The notes under the pieces were generated by a model. That model did not search any database, was not told where the DNA came from, and saw only the letters and a list, made by a program, of their open reading frames with translations. This document shows, one piece after another, positions 329-28,560 of a DNA stretch of 29,839 bases (position 1 is its first letter; each line of letters starts with the position of its first letter). The position numbers were made by a program, and so were the translations under genes. This DNA comes from a virus. The stretch covers positions 1 to 29,839 of IMG/VR virus record IMGVR_UViG_3300007512_000149; one strand, given 5' to 3'.

Positions 329-1252
329 CTAGAAATTTCCCTCACTGAATGGATCAGTTTCGGTAAAGTCAAAGATGTCATCTTGGTCTCTTAATAATTC
401 AAAGTCTTCGCCATCGCCCATGTTATCACTATCTTCTGGCTCTTGTGGAATAATTAATGTGGTTGTTGTGGTACTACTAAGTTCATATTCAGCACTAGAA
501 ACTGCGCCTTTAACTGTCTCACTGGTTGCAGTAGAAAGATTACCTGCAATATTTGTAACTGTTAGTTTCGTTGTATCCGCATCCCAATCTGTAACAACGG
601 CAGTTGCAGTCGCATCAGCAAGTGCCGCACCAGTAGAACCCAGAACTTGAAAAACAGTTTCACCTTCAAAATAATTGATATATGCAGAATCACTTATTCT
701 TGTACCAAGTGATAGTTCAATTGCAAATTGTTTTCGTTCATCTTCAACTTTATCGATATCACTATATCCTGTATCAATAGTTTCTCCACTGTATGTGAAT
801 ACCTCACATGAAAGTTTATATGTAAAGAGTTTGCCCAATTGATAGAAGGGATTTTCGTGTTCTACAAAGTTAATTTCAAACAAAGTATTACTTAACGGAA
901 AGAAGATTAAATCGCCTTCTTTTGGTCGTGTTGTATTTTCATAAGAACCAACTGATTCCTCAAATCGTTTACGAGAAACAATTAATTCTATTCTATCTTT
1001 TATTTGAATGCCAAATCTAGAAAGAACATCACCCTCTCCCTCAAATCCATCAACCGACTGAATATACATTTCAACTTCATATCCATCATCAAATTGAGAT
1101 ATAGTATCCTCTCCGAATATTTCATCTTTATTCATAAGAGTTCTTGGAATATAGACCATATCCCTTCCCATCGTTTTAATCATTTCGATGGTAAGGTCTT
1201 CTACTATATTCTGTTCACCAGTATAGTCTTTAAAGTAAGGATTACGAGCCAT
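329..1252 (-). CDS. 14: Neck protein gp14 homologue
   Basis: This is the T4-type neck (head completion) protein gp14, which joins the DNA-filled head to the tail. The opening NPYFKDYTGEQN, the segment MGRDMVYIPRTLMNKDEIFG and the FGIQIKDRIE region are what I know from gp14 of marine T4-like phages. The core ends near residue 195. Residues about 200-260 form a Thr/Ala/Val-rich insert (VLGSTGAALADATATAVV, then LTVTNIAG) of a beta type common in marine phage structural proteins. The last 45 residues are very acidic and end FTETDPFSEGNF. At 307 aa it is longer than T4 gp14 (256 aa), and the insert accounts for the difference. It follows gp13 by 7 bases, and its Shine-Dalgarno (AGGA) lies in the end of gp13. 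Confidence 0.85.
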   Translation of the reverse strand: MARNPYFKDYTGEQNIVEDLTIEMIKTMGRDMVYIPRTLMNKDEIFGEDTISQFDDGYEVEMYIQSVDGFEGEGDVLSRFGIQIKDRIELIVSRKRFEESVGSYENTTRPKEGDLIFFPLSNTLFEINFVEHENPFYQLGKLFTYKLSCEVFTYSGETIDTGYSDIDKVEDERKQFAIELSLGTRISDSAYINYFEGETVFQVLGSTGAALADATATAVVTDWDADTTKLTVTNIAGNLSTATSETVKGAVSSAEYELSSTTTTTLIIPQEPEDSDNMGDGEDFELLRDQDDIFDFTETDPFSEGNF

Positions 1253-1259
1253 ATTTTAG

Positions 1260-2066
1260 TTATCCTGTCATAAAGTCTATTGGAAGTTCGTATGTTAATC
1301 GTAATTCTTCTTCAAGTTTTTGAATTTCTTCGTTCGCTTCGGAAGAAATTGCATCACCTCTTAAAGAAACTCCACCAGGCATTTGAATGCCCTCAAACTT
1401 TGATAAATTCGACCCCCATTGTTTTTTGATTTGTGCCGTGACATACTTCTTTAACCAAATATCATTAAATATTTCTGAAAATTGAACAGAAGATATAGCA
1501 ACATATGCTTCAATTAAAAGATACTTGTCTTTTATGATGTCATTATCCCAATCAGCATCAAGGTTTAACTTATTTGTTATTTTATTAAATCGAATTTGCT
1601 TTTCTGGTTGGAAAAAATCTTGAATCATATTGATATATCGTTTCGTGGAATCATACCTAGACAATCCCATACTAGAATTGAATCCGAGCCCTCTATTAAT
1701 TCCAAAATAGTCCATTAATGCCATTTGATAACGAACATCAAACATATTAATATTTGCAAACTCACCAAATTGGTGAATTCTAACAACACTTAAAATATCC
1801 TTTCCTTGGATTCTGCTGCCTGTTGCACCAACGGGGTCACCCAAATCATTCAAATCAATGTATTTACGATCTTTATCCTCTTGGGTTACTTGGTAACTAA
1901 ATAATTCTTTTTCAGCACCATCAAAATGATATTCTGAAAATAATTCTAATGATTCGTCTAGTCTATCTTCGCACTGCTGTCTATCAACATTGATGTCAAT
2001 GACTGGTGCCCCAAGTTTTCTTAAAGAATAATCGATTAATGCATCTCTGGATGTTATATTTGACAT
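1260..2066 (-). CDS. 13: Neck protein gp13 homologue
   Basis: This is the predicted T4-type neck protein gp13, which with gp14 completes the head-tail connector. It starts SRDALIDYSLRKLGAPVIDIN, followed by a Glu/Asp-rich helix (CEDRLDESLELFSEYHFDG), then a conserved-looking middle (DILSVVRIHQFG, FDVRYQMALMDYFG) and a C-terminal helix ending in IDFMTG. Its 268 aa compares with 309 in T4. The ATG at 2066 has an AGGAG Shine-Dalgarno 7-8 bases upstream. The gene pairs with gp14 exactly as in T4. The 54-base gap to the upstream gene holds only that ribosome site and a weak CTTTA/TAAAG dyad, so it probably shares a transcript with the 169-aa gene and its promoter at 2659-2686. Confidence 0.82.
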   Translation of the reverse strand: MSNITSRDALIDYSLRKLGAPVIDINVDRQQCEDRLDESLELFSEYHFDGAEKELFSYQVTQEDKDRKYIDLNDLGDPVGATGSRIQGKDILSVVRIHQFGEFANINMFDVRYQMALMDYFGINRGLGFNSSMGLSRYDSTKRYINMIQDFFQPEKQIRFNKITNKLNLDADWDNDIIKDKYLLIEAYVAISSVQFSEIFNDIWLKKYVTAQIKKQWGSNLSKFEGIQMPGGVSLRGDAISSEANEEIQKLEEELRLTYELPIDFMTG

Positions 2067-2692: not shown

Positions 2693-4288
2693 TTATACTA
2701 TTCTTGCTAAAGTTACAGTTCTAACCCTGTGCATCATATCCCAATCACATGCAGAAACAAATCCCGAATTAAAATTTTGCGTATATGTCATTTTTCTATT
2801 TTTATCAGATTCATTCACTATTGTAGAAGTCCAATATGTAGAAGTCATTGGTTGCCATTTATATGCTGGATTAGAATTTTTTAGAATACCATCCATGAAG
2901 TTGGAATCGTTTTTTGTTTTGTCGTATATAAATGCAGATAAATGTAAAGAAGGTATAATGCACGAATTAATATTACTTGAAGTTATTCCATTATCTACGC
3001 AACTGTGTTTTACTGTATTGATTATATCAAAATCAGCATTCATATTTCTTGCGCTGTCGAATTTTGATGATATAGGAATTTTTGTATTCAACGAAATTGA
3101 TTTTTCATGAAACTTAATATTAGTTGCATGTAAATCTCTAGGAGAAACAATAACTGCGTATTTATTTTTAAGAAAGGATTTGAATTCTTTCCCATCAGAT
3201 TCCATAACATATTTTTCTGCTATACCTGTTTTTGGATTTCCGTAACCCTGAAGCCTTTCAAATGGGCTACCACTTGACCAAAACTGGCCAACATAAAACC
3301 CACCAAGTTGATAACTTCCTGGAGTCCAAGAATTAGCAACACTAGAAGATACTGTGCCGTATTTTATAAAATCATTTACAACATTAATTTCGGAACTATC
3401 TGAACAATTGTATGGAATTCCTTGTTTCTTTAGTCCCATCCAATATCCATTACAATTGCCGACAACAGTTTCGGTACATTTGTCCTCTTGAACACATGCA
3501 GAAAACAACCCGTCCTTGCTATTAACTGTGTTATTATATCTAATGATTGAATCTCTTTCGGTAGGCACAGAACTTATTAATACATTATCATAAACTTTAC
3601 TGCGAACCGAATTTCCACCTTCTGTAGTTTCTGACCTATATGGTGTGCTACCACATTCAATTTGTATTTCAACCGTTGGGTCGAAGGGACAAGAAACCGT
3701 GGGATAATATGTGGCAATGCCATTTGGATTTATTTTTGTTTGTTGATTGGAGCATTCTGATTCGGAACAAACATTATAACAATCAAACACATTACCGCCA
3801 ACTTCAACACAGCACCCAGAAGGAAATCTCACATCATCTTCAATTGGGTCTGGAACTTTTGGATTGTTACTTGCACCGTTTGTACAAAATGCAAAAATGT
3901 CATCCGAACTTTCGTTTATTTCGGAGCAAAGCCTATCTTTACCTAACCAAATGCCCCCAATAGAATGACATTCGCAAAATGTTACATCGTCTTGCAATCC
4001 ACCCATATAACTCGGAACGCCCTGATTAATACTGTTTAGATATTCGTCATAGTCATCAACATATTCACAAGCGCAACAGCACCCCCTAGAACTTAATTCT
4101 GGACATTGAACATCTGAAATGTCTTCACCTTCTTGTTTATATTGAAAATATCCCCTAGATTCCATACATGAAATATATGTTATGGGATATTCTTTTGTGC
4201 CGTCTGGATGACAACACACACCAATATCAGAAAGAAAATCCTTATAATTGGTTGATGATTTTATTCTAGATCGAAATTGTACACTCAT
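2693..4288 (-). CDS. Cys-rich protein with C-terminal DUF1566/Lcl_C-like domain, probable adhesin
   Basis: A 531-aa probable virion-associated adhesin. The first 22 residues are a short polar helix-like leader (KSSTNYKDFLSDIG). Residues about 24-310 are Cys-rich, with CC and CCCAC clusters and one module of the kind repeated in the neighbouring giant proteins (CECHSIGGIWLGKDRLC). From about residue 329 a GGFYVGQF start is followed by a domain ending in KWQPMTSTYWTST, FNSGFVSACDWDMMHRVR and TVTLARI. This matches the layout of DUF1566 (Lcl_C), where a YW(S/T)ST segment is followed by a Gly turn and an arginine-rich last strand. The same layout ends the 1043-aa protein. It lacks a collagen stretch and a signal peptide. 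It occupies the place of T4 wac (fibritin), just before the neck genes, but shows no fibritin coiled coil. Confidence 0.68.
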   Translation of the reverse strand: MSVQFRSRIKSSTNYKDFLSDIGVCCHPDGTKEYPITYISCMESRGYFQYKQEGEDISDVQCPELSSRGCCCACEYVDDYDEYLNSINQGVPSYMGGLQDDVTFCECHSIGGIWLGKDRLCSEINESSDDIFAFCTNGASNNPKVPDPIEDDVRFPSGCCVEVGGNVFDCYNVCSESECSNQQTKINPNGIATYYPTVSCPFDPTVEIQIECGSTPYRSETTEGGNSVRSKVYDNVLISSVPTERDSIIRYNNTVNSKDGLFSACVQEDKCTETVVGNCNGYWMGLKKQGIPYNCSDSSEINVVNDFIKYGTVSSSVANSWTPGSYQLGGFYVGQFWSSGSPFERLQGYGNPKTGIAEKYVMESDGKEFKSFLKNKYAVIVSPRDLHATNIKFHEKSISLNTKIPISSKFDSARNMNADFDIINTVKHSCVDNGITSSNINSCIIPSLHLSAFIYDKTKNDSNFMDGILKNSNPAYKWQPMTSTYWTSTIVNESDKNRKMTYTQNFNSGFVSACDWDMMHRVRTVTLARIV

Positions 4289-4299
4289 ATATTATATAT

Positions 4300-7200
4300 C
4301 TATTTGTTGCATACGCCATAAGGGCAATTTGGAGGAAGACACTGCACCCAAATACATTCTCCAGACGGAAGGGTAATGTATGTATAGGCCACTCCGTTGA
4401 TTATTTTACTATAATCTTCATTGAATGTTTGTCTGGTACAAACAATACAACCATCTGGAGGGTAACAATCTTGATGGTCTTCACAGACCGAATTGTCTCC
4501 ATTGTATGTTCCATAGTTTAGAGAACAAGAGTCTGAATCTGTTATATAACACCAAGGTTCTTGATTTACACAACATGCTCCAGTTTGAGTTCCTGGTTGA
4601 TGACATTCAGTATCATCTTCTAGTGTATCGCATAAATTGCCAGCACCCTTCCATGTTCCAAGTAAAACTGTATCGCATTCAAATTGAATGGTATCAACAC
4701 AACTAGGAGTTCCATTTATTCCACCACAACATGCACCCAAAGCACATGGGTCGGAATCACAATTCGCAATATGTGATAAAGATGTTCCCGTACATGAACT
4801 AGGCAACACATCAGAACATCCGCCGGTATATATTCCACCTGTCTTTTCACAACATGCGAAAGTATAGTCGGTGCAATCACCGCACTCATTTTCAATAGAA
4901 TCCAGTGGATTATTACAACAAGTCCAATCGGATGTACAAGTCGAATCTCCATGACAGCAGACTCTATCTGGGCAAGAGTCAGAACAACTATTAGATTCAT
5001 TCCAAAGACCGCCGCATAGTAGGCACTGTGTTTCTTCAAGTATTCGGCATTCTCCTACACCCAAGCAACATTGTCCTGTAGGAATTGAAGTATCGCATAG
5101 TGTTGTGGCCGCACAGGTATTTGAATCGTCCCATTGTCCTTTACCATTTGTATCACAACTACAATTCCATTCAGTTAAGTTATCATAACAAGTTGTTTCG
5201 CTTGTGCAACACGAACCCGTTCTATTCCCACAATCATTATTAATACAACTTCCGTTTGCAATGAAGTTATTTGGATTAGAACAATCACCTATTGTTGCAT
5301 TTCCGTCTTGACAATTTTGTGAACCACCATAACAACCATTAGCGGAGCTGGCATCCTCACAGCATATTCCATACTCAATAGGAGAGCATGGAGTGCCATC
5401 AGCACATTGTCCTTGCGAGCATTTTGTTGTTCCATCACCACAGTACACTCCACCATGTTGCATACTACATTGATTTTCAGTTACATCTGTTGTACAACTA
5501 CCACTACCGTAACAACAAGCACCTGTTGGTTCTGTAGTATCACATAAACCACCAATACAAAAACCTTGATTACAATCTGTTGTATTATCGCCACACCAAG
5601 TTCCAAGACAGTTACTCTGAGTAACATCTGTTATACAAGTTGTATCTGTACAACAAGCACCTGTTGGTTCTGTAGTATCACATCCACCACCAGTACAAGA
5701 ATCTTGATTACAATCTGTTGTATTATCGCCACACCAAGTACCAGAGCAATTTGCTTGTATGTCGTCTGTTGTACAAGTTGTACCATTACAACACGCACCT
5801 GTTGGTTCACCACATGTTATTTGTGAGCAAGTCATTCCATCATGGAACACTCCACCACCATTACTGTTATCAATATCCCAACAATCTACTGCGTTTGTAT
5901 CATCCACGCAAACACCTTTATTTGGATTACAACACGCACCCCTACCAAAACAAGACTCTTCGCACATCGGTCCAGAACCTTCTGGATGGAAACCGCAATA
6001 AGTACAAGTTTCTGGATGTAGATTGCAATCACACATTTCATGACCGGCCACCAAAGTATCGCAAAGCGATTCGTCTCCGTTGGTGAAACATTGGGGGTTT
6101 GGATTATTGGTCAGGCCGATAATATAACAACACTTATTCGGGCCCGAAAGGCACGGAGTCTCGCATTCAACTGGCTCTCCACTGCATGTAATATCTTCTC
6201 CTCCACATCCACAACACCCCGCACATGCCTGACCCCCCCCGGGGTCGCCACAAGAGCAATGACATGGTGTCCAACAATCTCCAATGTCATTGTCGCCGCA
6301 AGATTGTCCTAAACTATTAATACAATCCGTATCGATGGGATTATTTGGAAGCCATTGACCATTCCCATTCATCCAACAAGGACAACGCAATGCTGGGTCT
6401 GTTTCGTCAAACTCCAGGCACTGTGGATTCTGTCCGTTTGGACCTATATCACATTGTGGTGTAGTTCCAGAACTACCAGTATCACAAAACGGAGGTTGAA
6501 CTAAAGCAGAACCTTGACTACAATTGTACCCAAGTGTTTCGGGTTGTTGAATACAACAAGTAGATAAATTTGCCCAATATTCGCTTGGAATGTTATCACA
6601 TTGGTCATCATTAACATCACCCGGACATAAACCACAATCAAGATTACCATTGGAGCAATCTAGAGGAATCCACTTGCAAGGTTCAGGGCCGCACTCACAA
6701 CTACCGTCAGTACATTCTGTCGGAATAGTCCCACCATTGCACCTATACATACACTGCTCTGCGGTACTATATAAACATTGTGTTTCGCCCAAGACGGTAA
6801 GACCATCGCAACAAGTTCCAAACTGGATACCAGTACAAGATGGCCATTGGGGTATTACTTTACCAGTGTCATATTCACTAGTGCAATAACCACACGATTC
6901 TTCTTCACAACCCTCTGGGCAACATGGAGGTTTGGAATCGTCCCAATGAGAAGTTCCAGTAGATGAAAACTGGCCCATAAATTCACATTGTGCTTCACAT
7001 ATATCTTCATAACATCTCCAATTATATTGAGTTTCTACACAACATGTTCCTACTGGCTCCAATTCTTCAAATGCGCCTGGGCAATCGTTTGCGTTACAAT
7101 ACGATTCATGGCTTGTTCCACCATAAGTAGCACAATCTTCTGGTGAAATATTATCCAAACAGAAACAACTTAAACAGCAACTTGTTTGAGGCACATCGTC

Positions 7201-10200
7201 AGCAAGACAATTCGCACACAGATTTCCATAATCCCATCCAGCATTTTGGTCACACCACGCATACGCGCCTCTTAGACCACCTGTGAAGTCCTCACACGGA
7301 CCGTACATAATTTCACTACAGCCTTGTGGGTCATTAGGACTATTACATGGAATAATATAAGGAGGCAATTCACTATTATTTCTCGGTGCGTCTTCAGTAC
7401 ATGCCATATCTTTCATAAACCAATCGGGTCTTGCTGGGAATTGGTCGGGAGGAGTGCTTCCTCCAGTAATTAACGCAGTACAAATCTTTGCTCCTTGCAT
7501 TAATCTTGAGGCATCTGAAAGTGAAATGTTGTTTGCTTGGTCGGTTGAATATACACCATGAGTACAGAAACTATGTGCATCAGTTGTGAGTATACCATGT
7601 GTTGGATTTATATAACCCACCACGGTTTGGTCAAATCCAGGCAGAATCGCAGGGCACGCTGGTGGGTCCGCTGTACAATTTGGATAATCAAGAACACCAG
7701 TCCATGTGTTTGGATATCCTATGGCCTCCATAGCATCACATATTTTTGTACCACCACCAAGGCCACGGTCTGTTGCCTTAATGTCATCCCACAAACTTGC
7801 GAGTTCCGAAGAATTATTAGTATTAACTCTTTTAACATTTACATTTGTATTTGGAATCCACGCTTGAGTATTAAAGAATATTAGAGAGAAGAATACATCT
7901 CCTCTGTCAGCGAAAGCGGGTGACATACCAACAAGAGATTCACCAATTCCTTGCATTGCTTTATCAAACATTCCAGCCGCTATACTACCAGACACATCTA
8001 TTATGAATACTATATGTTCTGTTACTGAGGTTTGGCCTCTTTCGTCTCTGTCTTCTGGTTCATTTGCGCCAGGACAGCACGATGTTCCATCGCCATGGAA
8101 CACTCCATCATCATCTTCACATGCACTTCTGGATAAATTATCTTCACAACTTCCATCAGTATGGCAACACGCACCATATTCTTTTATACCACAAGGATCA
8201 CCGTCACATGTAGTATCATCTCCTTTATAAATTCCTTGCACATTGTCACAATCTGTTGATGTCATTATATCACAGGATTTTGCAGTACAACACGCACCTG
8301 TTGGTTCTAATGGGTCACCGCATAGGTCACAAGTTGTATCTATTCCTAACCATTCTCCACCACATCCTTCTTGGGTCGTTATAAAGCAACTTCCACTACT
8401 TAAACAACATGCACCAACATTTATATCTATATCACAGGCACAATCTACGGGGTTATCTCCCTCGCATTCTGTGTTTGGACCCATAAAGTTTCTTCCAGTT
8501 TGCGTACAAATGTCTGCGGTAGTTTTTTCACAAAGACCATCTCCACAACACGCACCAACATAAATGGTTGCATCACAGCAATCAACTTCACCACATATTC
8601 CATCAACTGCAATACCACCATAAATTAATTCACAAATGGTTGCACTCATTGGTGGTAGTTTTGTTTCTGGACGATTGGTGTCATAACTTCCTATACTATC
8701 ACCGATACAACTACCATCTTTACAACACGCGATAGGTGAGCAACAAGGACTTAAACAAAGTTCATCTCCACCATTTGTACAACCGGGACCATCACATTCT
8801 CCTGTGCATTGTCCTTCAGGATTGAATGAACCACCGAGAGCATTGCATTCTGTTACTGTAACATTTGAAACACATTCTTGACCAGCACCTCTAAGTGGTT
8901 CAGTTCGTGGTCTACCAGTATCACCGCCAGTTAAAGGCGTTCCTCCACTAAAGTAACCAGTACACACAGAACAAGGACCACAACATTCTGGATATGGCTT
9001 TCTGTTGGCTTGATCATATCCACAAGCACAACTTTCATCATCACTCCAACCATCGGGACATTCGCAACCTGCAATGGATCCACAGGGAGCATCTCCCAAG
9101 TAAACACCGCCCAATAATATACATTCTCTTCTTGGCCATCTAGATGCATATCCAACACAATTATTACCATTTTCATCACAATGGGGTAAGCAACAACATC
9201 CAAATGGACCCATTGCTTCTCCAACAAATGGATTATATGCATTTCCGGCGCCATATGTGTGAACTCCGTGTGTTCCTAATCGGGAGAGTCCACCAGGCAA
9301 ATTACAAACTTGCCTTCTAATTCTACATTCTGGGCAACCAGCACCACACTCTGAACCTAAATATGAAGGTCCTATAATAGTATCTGAATTACTATCGTCT
9401 CTGTACCAATTTGTGTTTGGAATAGGAACTCCATTATCATCCAAATCCCCACAGAACCCCCATTTTCTTGAAGGAGTACCAACATGAAGAGGATGAGTAC
9501 CCCAACTACAATTAGCATCTTCGACCAGAGCAGAGTGACACCACGGACTACTCCATTCTCTATCAAGTTTTACGCAGCCAGTATGTTCATCCCAACAAGA
9601 ACCAGCAGGACACATCATATCCCAGAAAGACATAATTACGGTAAATAGTGGGTCATATCCTCCAGTATCGACATGTGGTCCTTGAGCATCTTGCCAAGCA
9701 TAACTGGTAGTTGGAAAGCCGCAAGGACCCAATGAATCCCATATGGGCATGTTACTGGTAGTCCTAAAATCCTCGTGACTGGGAATACATGACTCTCCAC
9801 TCCACATCCCTTGACCATTTTCACAAGGTTCTAGATATTCTGAATCCCACATACCCTGTTCACAACTTGTTCCGGGACCCCACCATGTCCAATTTCCATC
9901 TTCTTCAAGACCTTGAAATCCTTGTACGCCAGGCAACGAATTACATTCTGGATATAGAGAAATTTCATCTGGGAAATTCTCATTCCAATTGGTGCATCTC
10001 TGTGGAATTCCAATGATTGTATCTACTGGGTCGTCATCATAATTCCCAAGCGAGCCTGGGTATGTGGGTGTTCCATTATATAATCCCCATTTATTTAATC
10101 TATCACAATTATGTTTTGTTGTTGTAAAACAAGCGGCCGGCGAATGTGGAACTCCTATACCACCACCGCCACAGTTATTACCAAACCACCACTCATCACA

Positions 10201-12147
10201 CCAATTGTCTCCAATAGCAGGATCATCTGGGTCAGATCCGTATTCAGTCCACGGATAGTTCCACTGATATGAAGTACAAGAACAACACGCGCCAGTTGCC
10301 TCTTCAATGCCAATGTCACAATTTTCTCGACAAACATTATCATCACAACATTCTTCATCAGATTCACAATCTGTATCGTCCTGACACCCACATGGTGGGC
10401 AACTATTATCGAGACATGGTTCTTTACAAAGACCACTACAACATATTTCAGAACCAGTACAGTATGTGTCATCACAACATTCAGGACATGGAGGGCAACC
10501 TCCATCACAACAGTTATCTGTGACACAGTTTCCACCACAACAAATTTCATCAGAACCGCAACTATTATCGTCAACACATTCTGGCACGAAACAAGAACTA
10601 CAAGGAATTCCAGAACCTAAAAATGCACCACCCAAAGATAGACATTGGAATAGAGTAGTAAATTGACACGAACCATCTGTCATACAACAAGCACCAGATG
10701 CATCAACACAACATGAACCAAACTCTTCTCCTCGTTCGTTTGTAGATTTCGCAGTATTAACTCCACATTCAATTTCTATAGGTTCATCTAATAATACTGG
10801 TCTTCCCCACTCATCTATTTCATAAAAATAATGAGTCCAGAAAGTACCACCAAAATAATCACATTCGGTAGCACCAATATTCGATAAACATACTCTTGTA
10901 CCTGCAAAATTGCCCCAATCACCACCTTCACTACAGCAAACACCACCAGCAGTTATACCACAGTTTTCTGCACAGGTTGCGAAAGGACTCCAATATCCAC
11001 CAGAACTTTCATCTGGAATTCCATCACCATCCAAATCAAATGGGTAATTATAATCTGGATTATTCGCACATTCTTCTGATGTAACATAATCTTTACAATT
11101 TAATTCATTTTCGTTGTCTAAGTAACAGCAAGAACCCAAACCATGTACAACTTCACATTCACTTGTTCCATATCCACGAACTGCGACATTTGCTTTCCAA
11201 CTTTTACCACCATCATGTGTTAAAAAATTAATAATATCTGTGCCGCAGGAGAAGTATAGGTCATGCTTGTCCATATAAACATTTTCTGGCCAATCCCAAA
11301 TTTCGTTGCCTTTAAGATGGACAGTAAAGTTAAATATTTCAATATCGGAAAATTCTCCAGTAAATCCTTTGATTCCTATAGGCGTTTCTACATTATAGAC
11401 ACCGCCTCTGCTCACATCAAGGTACATGCCAGCACCATCTCCAGATGTAGCACCCCAATTACCACCATCCCCCCACAGACGACCACCAGTTAAACCATAC
11501 CAAATTACATCACCAGTATCTTCACTGTAGAGTTCCATTGGCGGGACAGGTATAACAATTTCTTCTGGGTCATATGAAGCGTGTTTAGAGTTTCCAGTAG
11601 CATCAGTACCAAATATAATAACACCTTCATCTGAATAAGTTAAATTTGTGACATCTGCGCCTGTATCGGCACTAAGATATGCTACTCTTCCTGTTGTTGA
11701 TGAGTCTGCTGTACCACCTCTTTGCAAAATAACATTTCCACGAATACCCACGACTTCATCATTAGCGTATATTTTACCAAGAAGTGTTCCATCACCAGTC
11801 AATCCACGAAATTCAAAAGTAATTCCTTCTGTTACTTGTTTAAAAATTGCATAAGTAGTACCACTTATGTCTCTGTTGCGATATACACCACTCGCAGTTC
11901 CAGTAGCACCTGTGGGCCCACCAATATGGTCGATTGTAATTTCATTTCCGTCAGAAAGTGTTAATATTAAAGATTTACCAAAAGGTCTACCAGAAACAAC
12001 CCAATTTCCAGTTGCACCCGTTAAACCAGTTGCACCAATTGGACCAGTTGGTCCAGTAGGACCTGTACTTCCTGTTGGTCCTATAAGTCCAACAGGTCCC
12101 TCTTCTATTGCTGGTACTGTAACTGTACTGCTTCCAATTACTGGCAT
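4300..12147 (-). CDS. Giant collagen-like, Cys-repeat, von Willebrand A protein, predicted phage adhesin/fibre
   Basis: A single uninterrupted 2615-codon frame, about twice the length of T4 gp34. In order: leader PVIGSSTVTVP; ten Gly-X-Y triplets (residues 17-46); a beta-rich region to about 345; Cys-rich modules from GSCCY onward, one with a calcium-type loop DLDGDGIPDE (about 370); three WAP-like motifs D-x2-C-x4-CC-x3-4-C (about 525-612); a Trp-rich stretch (about 630-1000); more GACC modules; a von Willebrand A domain at about 1375-1570 with DVSGS (D1384, S1386, S1388), T1467 in GGGTKICDAM and D1523 in ILTTDAHS, the residues of a metal-dependent adhesion site; then modules to the end, including a tandem 46-aa repeat at 2114-2255. 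I count twelve exact GACC tetrads plus many GSCC/GTCC/GQCC variants. There is no signal peptide or membrane segment. A T4-type late promoter lies 39 bases upstream. Adhesion is inferred from the domains; virion location from context. Confidence 0.75.
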   Translation of the reverse strand: MPVIGSSTVTVPAIEEGPVGLIGPTGSTGPTGPTGPIGATGLTGATGNWVVSGRPFGKSLILTLSDGNEITIDHIGGPTGATGTASGVYRNRDISGTTYAIFKQVTEGITFEFRGLTGDGTLLGKIYANDEVVGIRGNVILQRGGTADSSTTGRVAYLSADTGADVTNLTYSDEGVIIFGTDATGNSKHASYDPEEIVIPVPPMELYSEDTGDVIWYGLTGGRLWGDGGNWGATSGDGAGMYLDVSRGGVYNVETPIGIKGFTGEFSDIEIFNFTVHLKGNEIWDWPENVYMDKHDLYFSCGTDIINFLTHDGGKSWKANVAVRGYGTSECEVVHGLGSCCYLDNENELNCKDYVTSEECANNPDYNYPFDLDGDGIPDESSGGYWSPFATCAENCGITAGGVCCSEGGDWGNFAGTRVCLSNIGATECDYFGGTFWTHYFYEIDEWGRPVLLDEPIEIECGVNTAKSTNERGEEFGSCCVDASGACCMTDGSCQFTTLFQCLSLGGAFLGSGIPCSSCFVPECVDDNSCGSDEICCGGNCVTDNCCDGGCPPCPECCDDTYCTGSEICCSGLCKEPCLDNSCPPCGCQDDTDCESDEECCDDNVCRENCDIGIEEATGACCSCTSYQWNYPWTEYGSDPDDPAIGDNWCDEWWFGNNCGGGGIGVPHSPAACFTTTKHNCDRLNKWGLYNGTPTYPGSLGNYDDDPVDTIIGIPQRCTNWNENFPDEISLYPECNSLPGVQGFQGLEEDGNWTWWGPGTSCEQGMWDSEYLEPCENGQGMWSGESCIPSHEDFRTTSNMPIWDSLGPCGFPTTSYAWQDAQGPHVDTGGYDPLFTVIMSFWDMMCPAGSCWDEHTGCVKLDREWSSPWCHSALVEDANCSWGTHPLHVGTPSRKWGFCGDLDDNGVPIPNTNWYRDDSNSDTIIGPSYLGSECGAGCPECRIRRQVCNLPGGLSRLGTHGVHTYGAGNAYNPFVGEAMGPFGCCCLPHCDENGNNCVGYASRWPRRECILLGGVYLGDAPCGSIAGCECPDGWSDDESCACGYDQANRKPYPECCGPCSVCTGYFSGGTPLTGGDTGRPRTEPLRGAGQECVSNVTVTECNALGGSFNPEGQCTGECDGPGCTNGGDELCLSPCCSPIACCKDGSCIGDSIGSYDTNRPETKLPPMSATICELIYGGIAVDGICGEVDCCDATIYVGACCGDGLCEKTTADICTQTGRNFMGPNTECEGDNPVDCACDIDINVGACCLSSGSCFITTQEGCGGEWLGIDTTCDLCGDPLEPTGACCTAKSCDIMTSTDCDNVQGIYKGDDTTCDGDPCGIKEYGACCHTDGSCEDNLSRSACEDDDGVFHGDGTSCCPGANEPEDRDERGQTSVTEHIVFIIDVSGSIAAGMFDKAMQGIGESLVGMSPAFADRGDVFFSLIFFNTQAWIPNTNVNVKRVNTNNSSELASLWDDIKATDRGLGGGTKICDAMEAIGYPNTWTGVLDYPNCTADPPACPAILPGFDQTVVGYINPTHGILTTDAHSFCTHGVYSTDQANNISLSDASRLMQGAKICTALITGGSTPPDQFPARPDWFMKDMACTEDAPRNNSELPPYIIPCNSPNDPQGCSEIMYGPCEDFTGGLRGAYAWCDQNAGWDYGNLCANCLADDVPQTSCCLSCFCLDNISPEDCATYGGTSHESYCNANDCPGAFEELEPVGTCCVETQYNWRCYEDICEAQCEFMGQFSSTGTSHWDDSKPPCCPEGCEEESCGYCTSEYDTGKVIPQWPSCTGIQFGTCCDGLTVLGETQCLYSTAEQCMYRCNGGTIPTECTDGSCECGPEPCKWIPLDCSNGNLDCGLCPGDVNDDQCDNIPSEYWANLSTCCIQQPETLGYNCSQGSALVQPPFCDTGSSGTTPQCDIGPNGQNPQCLEFDETDPALRCPCWMNGNGQWLPNNPIDTDCINSLGQSCGDNDIGDCWTPCHCSCGDPGGGQACAGCCGCGGEDITCSGEPVECETPCLSGPNKCCYIIGLTNNPNPQCFTNGDESLCDTLVAGHEMCDCNLHPETCTYCGFHPEGSGPMCEESCFGRGACCNPNKGVCVDDTNAVDCWDIDNSNGGGVFHDGMTCSQITCGEPTGACCNGTTCTTDDIQANCSGTWCGDNTTDCNQDSCTGGGCDTTEPTGACCTDTTCITDVTQSNCLGTWCGDNTTDCNQGFCIGGLCDTTEPTGACCYGSGSCTTDVTENQCSMQHGGVYCGDGTTKCSQGQCADGTPCSPIEYGICCEDASSANGCYGGSQNCQDGNATIGDCSNPNNFIANGSCINNDCGNRTGSCCTSETTCYDNLTEWNCSCDTNGKGQWDDSNTCAATTLCDTSIPTGQCCLGVGECRILEETQCLLCGGLWNESNSCSDSCPDRVCCHGDSTCTSDWTCCNNPLDSIENECGDCTDYTFACCEKTGGIYTGGCSDVLPSSCTGTSLSHIANCDSDPCALGACCGGINGTPSCVDTIQFECDTVLLGTWKGAGNLCDTLEDDTECHQPGTQTGACCVNQEPWCYITDSDSCSLNYGTYNGDNSVCEDHQDCYPPDGCIVCTRQTFNEDYSKIINGVAYTYITLPSGECIWVQCLPPNCPYGVCNK
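5383..5808 (-). repeat. Tandem repeat, 138-bp period (46 aa), three units
   Basis: Three head-to-tail units begin at 5808, 5670 and 5532, exactly 138 bases apart, each opening with the same codons for EPTGACC. Units 1 and 2 are both 46 residues and share CGDNTTDCNQ and CDTT with the cysteines aligned (8 per unit in unit 1). Unit 3 has diverged after GACC and is slightly longer. DNA identity between units 1 and 2 is long and nearly unbroken in places, so the duplication looks recent compared with the other modules in this gene. Confidence 0.88.
6233..6244 (-). repeat. Homopolymeric tract C4-G8 in coding sequence
   Basis: The plus strand shows eight C followed by four G; the gene strand reads CCCCGGGGGGGG, coding Pro-Gly-Gly near residue 1970 of the 2615-aa protein. 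It is the most striking mononucleotide tract in an otherwise AT-rich window and sits in a locally GC-richer patch at about 6040-6330. The reading frame is intact here. A run of eight G is prone to length change, or to sequencing error. Confidence 0.7.
7438..8025 (-). other. von Willebrand A domain-coding segment of the giant protein
   Basis: This part of the 2615-aa gene encodes residues about 1375-1570. The first strand HIVFIIDVSGSIAAGMF gives the D-x-S-x-S motif. A helix and second strand follow (RGDVFFSLIFFNTQAW), then the threonine in GLGGGTKICDAM, then the strand ILTTDAHSFC in the position of the usual LLTDG. A late strand, GAKICTALITGG, matches the usual I-x-I-x-x-I-G position. Unlike most of the gene, the first half has no cysteines, which fits a folded alpha/beta domain inserted between disulfide-rich modules. 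Boundaries are approximate. Confidence 0.8.
12010..12099 (-). repeat. Collagen-like Gly-X-Y repeat at start of the giant protein
   Basis: Ten uninterrupted Gly-X-Y triplets (GPV GLI GPT GST GPT GPT GPI GAT GLT GAT) cover residues 17-46. Comparable stretches begin at residue 21 of the 910-aa protein (nine triplets) and of the 1043-aa protein (five, then an AE break and four more). Such stretches form short triple helices and are a known trimerisation device in phage fibres. Thr at the Y position replaces the hydroxyproline of animal collagen. Confidence 0.85.
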
Positions 12148-12185: not shown

Positions 12186-12193
12186 TATTTATA
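12186..12193 (-). promoter_or_regulatory. T4-type late promoter TATAAATA
   Basis: The minus strand reads TATAAATA at 12193-12186, the exact T4 late-promoter consensus recognised by the gp55 sigma factor with gp33/gp45. It overlaps the TAA stop of the preceding 910-aa gene and lies 39 bases before the ATG of the 2615-aa gene, in a 41-base gap that also holds AAGGATG as ribosome site. It would give the giant gene its own late start. I found no other exact copy in a gap between genes. Confidence 0.65.
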
Positions 12194-14921
12194 CTAAACA
12201 ATTGTCACATCCATTCACAGCAACACAGTTTAATCCTTTATTTTCACATTCTGATTGTGGTATTGGCCGCGGGAATTCCTTACACATCCCATCACAACAA
12301 CAAGAGCAAACCATCCATATAGGATTATTAGCATCTGATGTATCAATATATGGAATGCATCCTAAACTATTTGTCTCCCATATATGTTCTTTATTACATA
12401 TGGGTTTATTTGTTGGTAAAGATACTAAATCTATATCCTTTGCACTTGATTGACAATTTTTAGAATCAAATACTGCATAACACCTTGATTCTATATTCTT
12501 ACAGTCTTCAACAATGCCACCAATTCCTAATGCACCTTCCCAACAGACACCGGGACAACAACAAGAACATTCTCCATCTCCTGCTTCAATTATCACTTGG
12601 TCATTTTCTGAAGAGAATAAAGCAATACCTGGCTCAATACAAGAAGATAAATTTGAAGATCCAAAACATCTATCATTTGGATTTGAAATGTCAAGACTTT
12701 TCCTCGCATTAGAAGTATTAAAGGTCGGTTTATAGTTTTGTTGTTTTGTTCTCTTATTTGTTACATTATTGCTTTTAGGAATAACTATTGGCGGAACAAT
12801 ACCATCCTTCGCATCATCTTTTAATAGATTTAATCCAGCACATGGCTTTCCATTACAATCTCCAGGAATCCAGATGCCATTGGCATCTGAACACTCTGTT
12901 GGAGTTGTGCCAGGTTCACAAAATTCATTAGTATGACAACATGCACCCTCGTTACAGTTTATGTCTTCACAATTTCTTCCAAATGCGAACACACCATTTC
13001 GTTCATTGCAAATACTTTCTGTAAGTGGAATACAAGAAAAATTATTATCTCCGTCAATATCTGTACAACAAGCATATATTTCTTCAATATCTGTTGGTGC
13101 ATTTCTGCAACACTCCCAACAAGTTTGCTTATCTGCTAAAAGCATTGTACCACAAGAATCGCTGTCAACGCAAGAGTATGGGTCTATACCATAATCGGGG
13201 AATGGTTCGCAACGACATCCCACTTCTGGACACAAACACATATAAGAATCATCACCAGTTTCCAATGCATCTTGGCAAGTTGCATTTCCTTCACCAGATG
13301 GACTTGGTGCAGTCGGCATAACTTGACTCCAACCATCGCAACCACCACAAGGGGGCGTTGCAATTTGCCCTGTGTCTGGGTCGATTATAGGATCACCAGT
13401 ATCACAATCTACACATTGGAAGAGGGGATTTGCACAGCCATATTCTACCCCACCTATAATACAGTTATGTGGGTAGTAGGAGGCATCTGTATAGTCCGTT
13501 GCTGAACTTACCATATTTAGTCCAGAACATCTTGAACCTACACCCCAAAATACACCAGTAGAGAAACCTGCACCGCTGCCAGACAATAACCTAGAACAAG
13601 TGATAGAATCAGTAATGAAACATGCTTCATCAACGCAACATGCACCCAAGTTCGCTTCTAAACAACAATTGGTTTCTGAACAAGGTTTATCAATCCAAAC
13701 ACCATTCGGACTAAATGAACATTCATATTCTGTTAATTCAAAACATTCATTATTGATACAGCAAGAACCTCTTTCGCCACAGGCATCTGGACAACCTCCC
13801 AAAGATTCTACACTATCTTGACCAGTGCAGGAAAGTCCAGCAACAAAGAATCCACCAAAATCCCTACATTTATTTTCACTTGACGATACACATATTCCGT
13901 TTATACAACAAGAACCTTCTGAATAACAATTTGGACCTTCGGGACGGAACAGACAAACGGTAGTAGAAAACTGCCCGCCAATTTCATTACAATATGATTC
14001 TGTAACATAGTCGATGCAATCTTGATGGTCTAACTTATTTTCGTCAGTACCATCTTTACAGTAACAACAAGAACCTATAATGTTATCTTCTACCACATAT
14101 TTGGAATCATATGTAACTCCAGCAAATTTATGAATTGTGCCATCATTTCCACCACCCAAATGTATTCCACTGGCTATTGCAGTAGAACCGATAGGGCCTC
14201 CTAAAAGTTCATCAACATAACTTATACTACTAAATGTTACGGCAGTTCCTGTTATACCCGAAGAACTTACTTCAGTTTCTGTGTTTGTTGGATTTTGTCC
14301 AAAATCTGGAATGTTGTTGTTGGCCGCTCCATAGAGTTCTCTGTGTGTTAGTATTCTTGTAGTTAATTGATTGCCACTCCAATAAGTATTAATAGCACCA
14401 TGAGCAGATAGTCCACCAAGGGTTGGGTCAATAAAGAGAAGTTCTCCAGTGTTGCCCATTCTGCCGCGGTCATAAACTGTTCCAGTTAAAACAATTTCAT
14501 TGTTATTCTGCACAGCCGATATATCTCTACCAGAAACAGTTAGAGTTCTGAAATATGCAGTCGTTCCAACTATTTCCTTGAATATTTCTCCGTAGTTATC
14601 TCCTTCTACGGCATTGGTAATAATAAAGTCGTCACTTTCTCTATCTCCAGTCCCACCACGAACACCACGAACACCAAAAGTTAAGCCGGTAGAGTTTGTT
14701 TCAAAATCATACATATCAAATATAATTTCATATTCAATACCAGAGCCGCCTGTTCCATATGCACTAGTGATTCCAAATCCAGTAAATCCAACTATACCTT
14801 GAGGACCAACAGGACCAGTTTCACCAGTCGCTCCAGTCGAACCTATAGAACCAGTTGGTCCAGTTATTGAACCAACTCCAGATGTGTCTAATATTCTACT
14901 GCTTCCGTGTACTGATGGCAT
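12189..14921 (-). CDS. Collagen-like Cys-rich fibre/adhesin protein, paralogue of the giant protein
   Basis: A 910-aa protein built on the same plan as its two neighbours. The leader PSVHGSSRILD is followed by nine Gly-X-Y triplets (residues 21-47) and a Gly/Thr-rich beta region to about 280. Cys modules then begin at IGSCCYCKDG, whose continuation (ENKL..C.DYVTESYC) aligns with GSCCYLDNENELNCKDYVT in the 2615-aa protein. Modules include GSCCINGIC, GSCCINNEC, GACCVDEAC and GACCHTNEFC. A Lys/Asn-rich, Cys-free linker at about 710-750 (KSNNVTNKRTKQQNY) separates them from a C-terminal Cys-rich domain (CSCCCPGVC, CSCCCDGMC) ending DNCLV. Its stop overlaps the late promoter of the next gene. Ribosome site AGGA; 8-base gap to the previous gene. 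It is probably an adhesive fibre protein, by analogy and position. Confidence 0.7.
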   Translation of the reverse strand: MPSVHGSSRILDTSGVGSITGPTGSIGSTGATGETGPVGPQGIVGFTGFGITSAYGTGGSGIEYEIIFDMYDFETNSTGLTFGVRGVRGGTGDRESDDFIITNAVEGDNYGEIFKEIVGTTAYFRTLTVSGRDISAVQNNNEIVLTGTVYDRGRMGNTGELLFIDPTLGGLSAHGAINTYWSGNQLTTRILTHRELYGAANNNIPDFGQNPTNTETEVSSSGITGTAVTFSSISYVDELLGGPIGSTAIASGIHLGGGNDGTIHKFAGVTYDSKYVVEDNIIGSCCYCKDGTDENKLDHQDCIDYVTESYCNEIGGQFSTTVCLFRPEGPNCYSEGSCCINGICVSSSENKCRDFGGFFVAGLSCTGQDSVESLGGCPDACGERGSCCINNECFELTEYECSFSPNGVWIDKPCSETNCCLEANLGACCVDEACFITDSITCSRLLSGSGAGFSTGVFWGVGSRCSGLNMVSSATDYTDASYYPHNCIIGGVEYGCANPLFQCVDCDTGDPIIDPDTGQIATPPCGGCDGWSQVMPTAPSPSGEGNATCQDALETGDDSYMCLCPEVGCRCEPFPDYGIDPYSCVDSDSCGTMLLADKQTCWECCRNAPTDIEEIYACCTDIDGDNNFSCIPLTESICNERNGVFAFGRNCEDINCNEGACCHTNEFCEPGTTPTECSDANGIWIPGDCNGKPCAGLNLLKDDAKDGIVPPIVIPKSNNVTNKRTKQQNYKPTFNTSNARKSLDISNPNDRCFGSSNLSSCIEPGIALFSSENDQVIIEAGDGECSCCCPGVCWEGALGIGGIVEDCKNIESRCYAVFDSKNCQSSAKDIDLVSLPTNKPICNKEHIWETNSLGCIPYIDTSDANNPIWMVCSCCCDGMCKEFPRPIPQSECENKGLNCVAVNGCDNCLV

Positions 14922-14929
14922 ATATTATC

Positions 14930-17900
14930 CTAAAATTCTTGATTAATTCCTTTATCTTCATCTCTGAGAACATTTGGAAGTTTCCATAGTTTATAATTTA
15001 TGTCTGAACTTTCTGCAAATCTCCCATCACATCTAACAAATCTAATTGGTCTTACTTGATATGTATTGTGGGTCCTGTCTTTTTTACCTGCTATAAAGTT
15101 TTCTTTGATGCCGTTTACATCAAATTTCATTGCCCATGCGAGTGTTCCAGGGTCTGCTGATGCAACCCCTGATGTTATTTCGGCAATCCCTTCTCCAGTT
15201 CCATGAGTTATCCCTTTAGTTTCATTAAATGCACCAGTTGAAGTCCAATACCAATCATTAAGTGGAGTACCATCTTCTTCAAGAAGTTTAGCATTTAAAT
15301 CAAAACCGTCATGCTCCCTGCACACATTAGAAGCAATATATGCCATTTCATCATGACTTGGCATATGCCAACTGGAAACATTGTTTGGACTTGAACCAGT
15401 TATACCATCTATTGAAATTATTCTGTCATCGTATAATCTAGTTGCTCTAAATGCAGAAACATAATCAGCACTCAATCCTGGGCCAAAGTCTGTCGATGAA
15501 TAAAACCCATCGTTGTTGTTATAATTTTGAGATAGTGCATTATCAGCACTAATGATTCTGATGTTGTTATATAAACCCCAATTCCTATGCCATTGACCAT
15601 GTGCAGTTTGTATAGGTTTTGTTTGAAGTTTTTCTACCGCTCCATTTCCTAGTCTTCTGGCTTCTTTGCAACTGGTAAATGTATTAGGAGCAATATTACC
15701 ATAAGAAATATCTCCCATTTCCGAATTATACCAATAACCTTCTTTGAGTTTAAAATAATCAAGTTTCATGAAGTCATCGTATCTTCCAATTATTTGATTG
15801 TATATTGGTCCCCATGCACTGCCATGATTTCCCCAATAAAATTCACTCGTCGCTCCTGGGTTTTTAGTCGGATTTATAATTTCACGGTCACCAGTAATTC
15901 CAAGAGGGTCCATAGAGACAATCATATAATATGCATCTGGTCTACTAATATCTTCTTGATGGATAGACATTGGACCATACTCACCACATCCTTTAGAATC
16001 AAATCCATATCCATGAAAATCATATTTGGATTTGTATGATTCACACTCAAGACCTCTGGCATCTGATGTAGAACCAGTAGCACCTTCCATTAATGTTTGC
16101 CATGGTGTAGTTTTATTTCCACCAAATGCTTTTACACCAACTACAGAAGAACTATATGGTTGATACAAACCAACTACCATTCCACCCGCATATAAATCTC
16201 CTGGATTTAAATTTAATTTAGTTACTTCTTGAACACAAGAGGAAGTTGTTGTATTATTCCTACAATTAATATCATTACAGAGACTTCTATGACCAGCATA
16301 AAGATAACCAGATTCTATACAACCACCACCAGATAATCCATCAACACAAATCTCTGTTCCTTGACAACATGCACCTGTTCCACCAGAACATACTTCAAAT
16401 TTATGTGTTCCTGAATAGCAAGATACACCAACACCCAAGAAGTAATGCCCCTTCTTCTTGCATTGACTCTCAGAAATTTGTGAGCAATTTCCTATTCCGT
16501 CACAACATGCACCAAATTCTTTTGAAATATCATCACATTTCATATCAACACACTGGCTTCCAGTTCCACCGAATGAAGAAATTTTATTTAATGGGTTTCC
16601 AAGTTCAATACATTCATTAGCAGAAGAATTATCATAACATGTAGAAATATTTGTTTGTGTATTTGTCACACAACATGCACCATTTGCTTCATAGCAAACA
16701 CTTCCAGTATTTGCTATAACTGAACCACCGCAAGTGGTCCCTGCACCAAAGTAATACCCATAGCACAAATCACTTGTGGTATAAACACAAGTTCCATCGC
16801 CAACACAACACGCACCAGTAGTTCCTGTCATCCCACTAATAAACGGATAATTTCTATTCGTACTTTTATATGTAACTTTATCAGAAATACAATGGAAAGG
16901 ATCACCAGTATTTCCTTGAGAATGGTATTGAACCATGTTTCCATGCCATGCGGCGCCTTTTGGACATATTTCTTCTATACCATCACCGTCTATATCTCTA
17001 GATTCACAAGGCAACCAGAAGAAATTAATTATATCATCACCACCACTCCAACAAGGTTCTTTGTCTAAAGGCCATATAATGTTGCCTCCATCAAATCTAA
17101 CTTGTTCATATCCAGAAGATGCACCAATAACTTCCATTGTAAATGCTTTACTCAAATCCCTTAAATCGTCATCTGAATTTAATACATTTCCAGTATAACC
17201 AAAAGAAGCATCACGGAATCGGAGTTGAAGTGGACCAGTATTACCATCGGTATCATCAACATCGGCAAGTTGTCTCATATCTATGATAATGTTCTTTGCT
17301 TCATTTGGATTTATGGGGCTATCAATAGGCGTAATATACATTGGGTCTTCACCATCGCCACCAACATTTTGAATATCTCCAGAAGAACTAACAATAAGAT
17401 ATTTTATTTTTTCTTTATAACTTTTTACTTTTGCATTCAGAGCATTATAGTTTTTACCAACACCCTCTTCCAAGTCAAAACTACTTGCAGTGTCATATGT
17501 CGCACCAGTAATACCAGAAATCCAAAGAGGATTTGTAATATTGTCATCGATAGCAACCAACTGATTGGCAGTACCACTCTGAACATCTAAATATCCAAAA
17601 TTACCTCTATCATAATTAATATCAATGTTATTAAGAAATTCATTTTGAACCAAAGAAATGGCAGAACCATCATAATCACCAGTAACTTCAAGACTTCTTA
17701 TAATGATAGTGTTTGGGTCAAAATTGTCATTTCTGCCTTTTCCAATAGTTTCACCGCCCAATGTAGATGAAGCATTCAAGACATCAATTAAATTATAGGT
17801 ATCGCCAGTAGGTCCTTTGATTCTGGTTAAAGTAGTATAAGAACCAGTAGGTCCCTCTTGAGCATTAAATTCTGTATAAAGTTTATCATCATCTACCAGA

Positions 17901-18061
17901 TACATCCAAGTGATGCCTGCACCACTGTATCCAGTATTTCCTATTCGTCCCTCAGCGCTCGGTCCTGTGGGGCCTGTAAAACCAGTACTACCTGTCGGGC
18001 CAGCAATTGCTGTCTGTCCGAAAGGTTTGAAATAACTACTTCCATGAATAATTGCTACCAT
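14930..18061 (-). CDS. Collagen-like Cys-rich adhesin with C-terminal DUF1566/Lcl_C domain
   Basis: A 1043-aa protein. Leader VAIIHGSSYFKPFG, then Gly-X-Y triplets from residue 21 with one AE interruption, then a beta-rich region to about 410 that includes a calcium-type loop DIDGDGIEE near 355. Residues about 415-605 hold four exact GACC modules of the form GACC-x4-C-x6-8-C-x5-10-G-x3-C. From GDLYAGGMVVGLYQP (about 624) to the end is a DUF1566/Lcl_C-like domain: SSWHMPSHDEMAYIASN, WYWTSTGAFNE (about 938) and VRPIRFVRCDGRF (about 1007). Legionella Lcl has the same pairing of collagen-like repeats with this C-terminal domain, which there binds host polysaccharides, so receptor binding is a reasonable inference. 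Start codon is 5 bases from the previous stop; no strong ribosome site, which suggests coupling. Confidence 0.75.
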   Translation of the reverse strand: MVAIIHGSSYFKPFGQTAIAGPTGSTGFTGPTGPSAEGRIGNTGYSGAGITWMYLVDDDKLYTEFNAQEGPTGSYTTLTRIKGPTGDTYNLIDVLNASSTLGGETIGKGRNDNFDPNTIIIRSLEVTGDYDGSAISLVQNEFLNNIDINYDRGNFGYLDVQSGTANQLVAIDDNITNPLWISGITGATYDTASSFDLEEGVGKNYNALNAKVKSYKEKIKYLIVSSSGDIQNVGGDGEDPMYITPIDSPINPNEAKNIIIDMRQLADVDDTDGNTGPLQLRFRDASFGYTGNVLNSDDDLRDLSKAFTMEVIGASSGYEQVRFDGGNIIWPLDKEPCWSGGDDIINFFWLPCESRDIDGDGIEEICPKGAAWHGNMVQYHSQGNTGDPFHCISDKVTYKSTNRNYPFISGMTGTTGACCVGDGTCVYTTSDLCYGYYFGAGTTCGGSVIANTGSVCYEANGACCVTNTQTNISTCYDNSSANECIELGNPLNKISSFGGTGSQCVDMKCDDISKEFGACCDGIGNCSQISESQCKKKGHYFLGVGVSCYSGTHKFEVCSGGTGACCQGTEICVDGLSGGGCIESGYLYAGHRSLCNDINCRNNTTTSSCVQEVTKLNLNPGDLYAGGMVVGLYQPYSSSVVGVKAFGGNKTTPWQTLMEGATGSTSDARGLECESYKSKYDFHGYGFDSKGCGEYGPMSIHQEDISRPDAYYMIVSMDPLGITGDREIINPTKNPGATSEFYWGNHGSAWGPIYNQIIGRYDDFMKLDYFKLKEGYWYNSEMGDISYGNIAPNTFTSCKEARRLGNGAVEKLQTKPIQTAHGQWHRNWGLYNNIRIISADNALSQNYNNNDGFYSSTDFGPGLSADYVSAFRATRLYDDRIISIDGITGSSPNNVSSWHMPSHDEMAYIASNVCREHDGFDLNAKLLEEDGTPLNDWYWTSTGAFNETKGITHGTGEGIAEITSGVASADPGTLAWAMKFDVNGIKENFIAGKKDRTHNTYQVRPIRFVRCDGRFAESSDINYKLWKLPNVLRDEDKGINQEF

Positions 18062-28092: not shown

Positions 28093-28560
28093 TTATCTTA
28101 CCTTTGTTAATCCTATACTGATTGCATCTCTTAAAGTTTGTCCAGGGCCTGCAAGTCTCGTTACAAAATACGAAATATAAACATATAAAAGATTAATATC
28201 TGCATTATTTGCCATTGCGGCTTCTACTCCATGCCCTGGAACATATGCTGTCCTTTCCGTTACTGGAACATCATTTATTATAACATGTTCAACATTTACT
28301 CTTGGCTCATATAATTTTATTTTATCCCTAATATCTAATGATTGTATGGCAGCCAAGTGAGGGTCATAATTTTCAAACAAAGAGTCATTAATATCTGTTC
28401 CAAAGTTTCTATTAAATGGTTTTTCTCCAGGAATAGTAAGAAGTAAATTCACCAAAGATTGTCTTATAGAATAGACATCTTTTACCACTCCAATATCGTT
28501 AGTAAATCTATTTTTCGCGAAATTAATTTCTACATCTGAATGTACATTTGAGAGTGCCAT
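28093..28560 (-). CDS. 25: Baseplate wedge protein gp25 homologue (GPW/gp25 family)
   Basis: A 155-aa member of the GPW/gp25 family (Pfam PF04965), the small wedge protein that anchors the sheath to the baseplate. The hallmark segments are present: VYSIRQSLVNLLLTIPGEKP (about 28-47), FNRNFGTDINDSLFENYDP (about 48-66) and IRDKIKLYEPRVNVEHV. T4 gp25 has 132 aa; the extra length is at the C-terminus. An AGGAG ribosome site precedes the ATG at 28560. The 76-base gap upstream has no exact promoter match, only AT-rich sequence. Confidence 0.92.
   Translation of the reverse strand: MALSNVHSDVEINFAKNRFTNDIGVVKDVYSIRQSLVNLLLTIPGEKPFNRNFGTDINDSLFENYDPHLAAIQSLDIRDKIKLYEPRVNVEHVIINDVPVTERTAYVPGHGVEAAMANNADINLLYVYISYFVTRLAGPGQTLRDAISIGLTKVR

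Follow-up and report, generated by a model that had tools for sequence, protein, structure and literature searches.

The locus analyzed here raises the question of what a T4-like phage might do with one giant gene whose product, P0001, combines collagen-like triplets, arrays of cysteine modules and a putative von Willebrand A (VWA) domain. The window is the whole stretch of 29,839 nucleotides that was analyzed. Since it constitutes the first 29,839 bases of the 50,241-base contig IMGVR_UViG_3300008954_000078, the identical loci L002, L083 and L135 are the same record as the window and are not counted as independent confirmation.

A giant gene in a T4-like fibre cassette

All main genes of the window are carried on the minus strand (Table 1), and the P0001 gene is contiguous and co-directional with its neighbours between the baseplate wedge and neck genes, the order being gp25-type, gp6-type, fibre-type genes, 1043 aa, 910 aa, P0001, 531 aa, head-tail adaptor and head closure. 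The equivalent stretch of T4 holds baseplate, short-fibre and whisker genes. One of the fibre-type genes in the cassette shows similarity to a tail-fibre PHROG, and the synteny with the baseplate wedge and neck genes bears out the description of the region as a T4-like fibre cassette in an earlier note on this DNA. The 531-aa neighbour of P0001 has an Lcl_C-like look by eye, without a Pfam match.

Table 1 Features of the window and of the P0001 protein.
Feature	Position	Strand	Basis
Head closure Hc2 (gp14-type)	329..1252	-	phrog_460, E 9.3e-81
Head-tail adaptor (neck; gp13-type by position)	1260..2066	-	phrog_211, E 2.7e-40
531-aa gene, next in the cassette, synteny anchor	2693..4288	-	alignment A5; 80 loci
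P0001, Cys-rich giant protein of 2,615 aa	4300..12147	-	single open frame; 10.7% Cys
Conserved C-terminal tail, residues 2580-2615 (LPSGECIWVQCLPPNCPYGVC)	4303..4410	-	
Second Cys-rich array, residues 1640-2566 (15% Cys; GACC at 2070-2523)	4450..7230	-	
VWA-like domain, residues 1379 to about 1600 (DVSGS 1384, GGGT 1464, TTD 1521)	7348..8013	-	
First Cys-rich array, residues 338-1359 (GACC at 485, 1198, 1245, 1284, 1325)	8071..11136	-	
Three WAP-like Cys cores, residues 524-610	10318..10578	-	pattern only
Calcium-type loop DLDGDGIPDE, residues 371-382	11002..11037	-	pattern only
N-terminal domain, residues 223-335, common to the family	11143..11481	-	alignment A1 and family matches
Collagen-like Gly-X-Y run, residues 17-49	12001..12099	-	Pfam Collagen below cut-off
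910-aa collagen and Cys paralogue	12189..14921	-	
1043-aa collagen and Cys paralogue with Lcl_C-like C-terminus	14930..18061	-	weak Pfam match (Lcl_C-like part)
Baseplate wedge subunit (gp6-type)	26301..28091	-	phrog_219, E 1.5e-85
Baseplate wedge subunit (gp25-type)	28093..28560	-	phrog_261, E 6.9e-32

The P0001 gene is a single uninterrupted frame, as had been claimed, and lies on the minus strand, a detail the earlier note omitted. Its product contains 279 Cys residues (about 11%), while Lys and Arg are very scarce and His amounts to 1.4%. The smaller motifs reported previously were likewise recovered: a single Gly-X-Y run, of 11 triplets where ten had been counted, exactly 12 copies of GACC where at least twelve had been listed (0.19 on average and never more than 2 in 200 shuffles), three WAP-like motifs and a calcium-type loop, the last two as patterns. 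Profile searches were weaker than the earlier note implied, in that Pfam Collagen (PF01391; 20.9 bits against a cut-off of 27.2) and Pfam VWA (see below) both give scores below their cut-offs. A search of P0001 with Pfam WAP (PF00095) gave nothing at E<=1, and the pattern shows a 6-Cys core and not the full 8-Cys arrangement.

A tblastn search with P0001 against cultured phages (50,697 phage records) returned nothing, and no match in these records was obtained with the N-terminal domain, the modules, the minimal form of the protein, or the 531-aa and 1043-aa neighbours. The literature on Cys-rich, VWA, FG-GAP or WAP phage fibres yielded nothing relevant either, and the statement that no phage fibre with this set of domains has been described holds within these searches. 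The TerL of the relative L022 shares approximately 60% identity with the terminases of cyanophages, but psbA, a cyanophage marker, is absent from 15 related records, which leaves cyanobacteria unsupported as hosts.

A six-Cys module shared with predicted secreted bacterial proteins

The arrays of P0001 contain a module of about 37 aa with six Cys residues (consensus GACCIEDGTCENTTEDECNALGGVYQGDGTTCADVDC), for which no Pfam entry was found. It had previously been missed that this GACC module is an abundant, unnamed constituent of predicted secreted planctomycete proteins. Predicted secreted proteins filled with the same module occur in Planctomycetota, Zixibacteria and others; they carry signal-like leaders and EF-hand/dockerin-like ends, both recognized by eye, and up to 108 module matches were obtained in one genome in the Planctomycetota search. 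The planctomycete genomes L115 (L115:3462-8522), L111 and L114 encode many large predicted secreted GACC-module proteins, one of them with 31 modules. An HMM built from bacterial copies only, with the phage sequences left out, detected 9 modules above 8 bits in P0001 (best score 36.8) and 0 in 200 shuffles. For the scan of the collection one tandem of modules was used; the nine-sequence alignment was too diverse.

AlphaFold produced a confident model of the module from a 52-sequence alignment (pLDDT 88). With this model Foldseek placed iRhom1/2 first (E 1.3, probability 0.80), and the sequence profile of the module also placed iRhom1/iRhom2 first, with a borderline E value of 0.057; neither match is significant by itself, and both draw on sequence information. 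The model gave no significant match in the viral fold library. By these two methods the six-Cys module appears weakly similar to the iRhom homology domain, which is extracellular and stapled by 8 disulfides (PMC11248996; PMC10148629).

The VWA-like segment between the arrays

The assignment of a VWA domain in the earlier note could be kept in a qualified form. The metal-site motifs of VWA domains (D-x-S-x-S, T and D) are all present in P0001 as DVSGS, GGGT and TTD, but the segment scores only 17.5-19.9 bits with Pfam VWA (PF00092) against a cut-off of 23.8 bits, with an E value of 0.13 for the whole protein; the sub-region gave 0.003-0.005, and a search of one genome 4.7e-5. An insert of Rossmann-like or unrelated type that resembles VWA by chance would agree with this score, as well as with the low-confidence AlphaFold model from the single sequence and with the hhalign probability of only 6% when a profile of the segment was compared with the other phage VWAs. 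Structure prediction had been proposed as a check, but at a pLDDT of 35.5 the model is uninformative on the fold. Its top Foldseek matches are VWA/I-domains (E > 0.8), although a model of such low confidence proves nothing.

The evidence against a chance resemblance comes from relatives. L137 (L137:745-9981) is an orthologue of 3,078 aa on an independent contig, with 49% identity to P0001 at the N-terminus and 37% at the C-terminus; its VWA segment is 30% identical and keeps D-x-S-G-S and the downstream D, and the T motif can be read by eye in both proteins. Genuine VWA domains are present in sister proteins as well: the insert of L089 exceeds the Pfam VWA cut-off (55.5 bits) and matches mussel PTMP1 (E 3e-9), more VWAs were found in paralogues, and a weak one in L185. 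When the two-sequence profile of P0001 and L137 was run against the PDB, the first match was a VWA-like chain, that of the secreted "hemolysin" 9no5 (E 0.013). Because L137 keeps the segment and its motifs, and because the profile finds the 9no5 chain first, we regard the P0001 segment as likely to be a divergent VWA domain, and a chance resemblance as quite unlikely. Among the viral contigs the P0001 VWA query retrieved only the same record, and the VWAs of L089 and L137 retrieved nothing beyond their own contigs or duplicates of these.

Conserved ends and differing inserts in a family of phage proteins

P0001 is one member of a large family, and within this family the VWA domain is one of several interchangeable inserts; the earlier note had seen neither. 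A scan of viral contigs, with the N-terminal domain and the downstream genes as queries, gathered 70 distinct proteins, encoded just upstream of a 531-aa-type gene on uncultured T4-like viral contigs and mostly Cys-rich. Thirty-nine of the 70 are complete and range from 458 to 3,078 aa; at least 5% Cys is found in 34 of these 39, and at least two modules in 30. The N-terminal domain (alignment A1) is common to the family, and a short Cys tail, e.g. G-E-C-V-W-M-x-C-x-x-x-x-C-P-Y-P-x-C, closes most of the complete proteins; a strict pattern of it catches 15 of the 70, the degenerate form being read by eye. The shortest form, L101 (458 aa), consists of the N-terminal part and the tail without the module array, which is therefore dispensable in some relatives. 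The family is widespread and apparently undescribed. In L137 the WAP-like cores are expanded into a larger array (CTGDCTVPEDCDDGLCCENNVCV repeats).

As the exact P0001 gene occurs in only one assembly, a chimeric contig, in which a phage gene had been fused with that of a cellular module protein, had to be considered. We reject such an artefact, whose probability is negligible, since orthologues and syntenic homologues are present in dozens of independent contigs.

The Cys-poor inserts within the arrays vary among the relatives and comprise VWA, FG-GAP propeller, LRR and Lcl_C-like domains. An FG-GAP_2 propeller is present in L084 (431 bits) and L091 (188 bits), leucine-rich repeats end Cys-rich proteins of the cassette in L053:5594-7231, L039:6875-8590 and L045:3899-5596, and Lcl_C-like domains occur in 16 of 54 segments. 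The closest view of a differing insert is given by L084 (L084:9311-17954), which is 74% identical to P0001 in the N-terminal domain and 48.6% identical over the first approximately 600 residues; across the modules that precede the insert the identity is 48%. Its gene is split into two ORFs, the first of which stops where the VWA domain of P0001 begins, and the second encodes seven FG-GAP repeats with long Ser/Asp-rich linkers. The differing inserts of related proteins are observed, and the direction and cause of their exchange between related phages are inferred.

Disulfides or metal in the arrays

No signal peptide is obvious in P0001, which is predicted to be made in the reducing cytoplasm, where the clusters formed by its 279 Cys residues could load Zn or Fe; the virion would then carry metal, possibly aiding uptake or stiffness. 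Phage fibres have been tied to iron in papers on the "Ferrojan Horse". A sulfhydryl oxidase (Evr1_Alr) was not detected in the relatives, which would also suit a metal-loaded protein, although the control of this search was silent too and the result is not evidence of absence. Against metal stands the context of the module: it recurs in proteins of Planctomycetota and Zixibacteria that are predicted to be secreted, and it is similar to the iRhom domain with its disulfide staples. Moreover, the adjacent, regularly spaced CC pairs are reminiscent of a disulfide knot, and His is scarce. Because of the secreted proteins and the iRhom resemblance our analysis favours disulfides over metal for the Cys residues of the arrays, and we hold metal loading to be improbable. 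As neither an evident signal peptide nor an oxidase was found (the latter with a silent control), the bonds would form after lysis.

Thioredoxin matches were considered as candidate PDI proteins and rejected, being CxxC-glutamine-synthetase-like fusions. In the related phage records L133:325-1818 (minus strand) and L134:1495-2934 (plus strand) a domain resembling CxxC thioredoxin/glutaredoxin, with a score under the Pfam cut-off, is fused to a putative glutamine-synthetase catalytic region, the latter judged by eye only.

P0001 as a candidate virion adhesin

We read P0001 as an adhesin on the virion of an uncultured marine T4-like phage, anchored at the baseplate, with a stalk of Cys modules and exchangeable binding inserts, and put the probability of this reading at roughly 0.6. 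What stands of the very long adhesin proposed in the earlier note is a Cys-rich, adhesin-like protein of 2,615 aa encoded in a T4-like fibre cassette, whereas its location in the virion, trimerization, disulfides and ligand binding are postulated. A short collagen trimer together with the domain at residues 223-335 would anchor the N-terminus at the baseplate region, and the array of six-Cys modules would form a long, stiff stalk resistant to proteases, with disulfides most likely cross-linking it once the particle meets oxidizing seawater. Adhesion-type domains within the array, here the VWA with its metal site, would bind a surface ligand, and the conserved C-terminal tail would cap or dock the fibre. 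Exchange of inserts between related phages would then change the binding target.

Receptor-binding fibres usually vary at the tip, and the conserved C-terminus is therefore unusual and speaks against an adhesin. It is compatible with a role in decoration or matrix binding, in which P0001 would be a structural or decorative baseplate protein with fixed ends, and the inserts would serve adhesion to particles or host matrix, or protection, and not primary receptor binding. The conservation of the C-terminal tail as well as the N-terminus, with the variable part internal, and the module-free L101 both agree with such a role. However, ligand binding is typical of the VWA, FG-GAP and LRR folds, and their exchange fits changing targets, so that we consider a structural or decorative protein possible but rather improbable and prefer the adhesin.

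More speculative, and in our opinion very doubtful, is the broader idea of phages with an extracellular-matrix-like, disulfide-armoured surface, built from the module shared with Planctomycetota and mounting exchangeable integrin-type heads (VWA, FG-GAP propeller, LRR). Sharing of the module may be a sign of planctomycete hosts, or else of adhesion to the planctomycete matrix; to our knowledge there are hardly any known examples of planctomycete host-virus pairings.

As an adhesin, P0001 would define an uncultured, recurrent family with conserved ends, a cysteine-module scaffold and interchangeable binding domains, which parallels animal matrix proteins. It also draws attention to a widespread six-Cys module without a Pfam entry, for which an iRhom-like fold is a testable hypothesis, and raises the question of how a phage makes and oxidizes proteins with hundreds of cysteines.

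Comparison with known systems

Like the gp9-gp12/wac region of T4-like phages (short tail fibre and whiskers), the P0001 gene is located between the genes for the baseplate wedge and the neck, and its cassette likewise holds fibre-type genes, one of them with the PHROG similarity mentioned above, and collagen-like triplets. Unlike the T4 fibres, P0001 is without a sequence match in the 50,697 phage records, and its Cys content and size are far outside theirs. One module resembles the iRhom homology domain of iRhom1/2 in the CC-x-C-x-C-x-C pattern and, going by the predicted model, perhaps in its local fold, with borderline statistics. In iRhom, a membrane pseudoprotease of eukaryotes, the domain is a single unit, whereas P0001 has a long array. 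With the unnamed predicted secreted GACC proteins of Planctomycetota/Phycisphaerales P0001 shares the 37-aa six-Cys module, cross-detected by HMM, but these proteins are cellular, have signal-peptide-like leaders, and are without the collagen start and the phage N-terminal domain. Finally, VWA adhesins (PF00092), such as the vWFA of bacterial large adhesins and mussel PTMP1, have the D-x-S-x-S, T and D motifs in common with P0001, whereas the putative VWA of P0001 is a divergent copy, below the Pfam cut-off, set inside the Cys module array of a phage protein.
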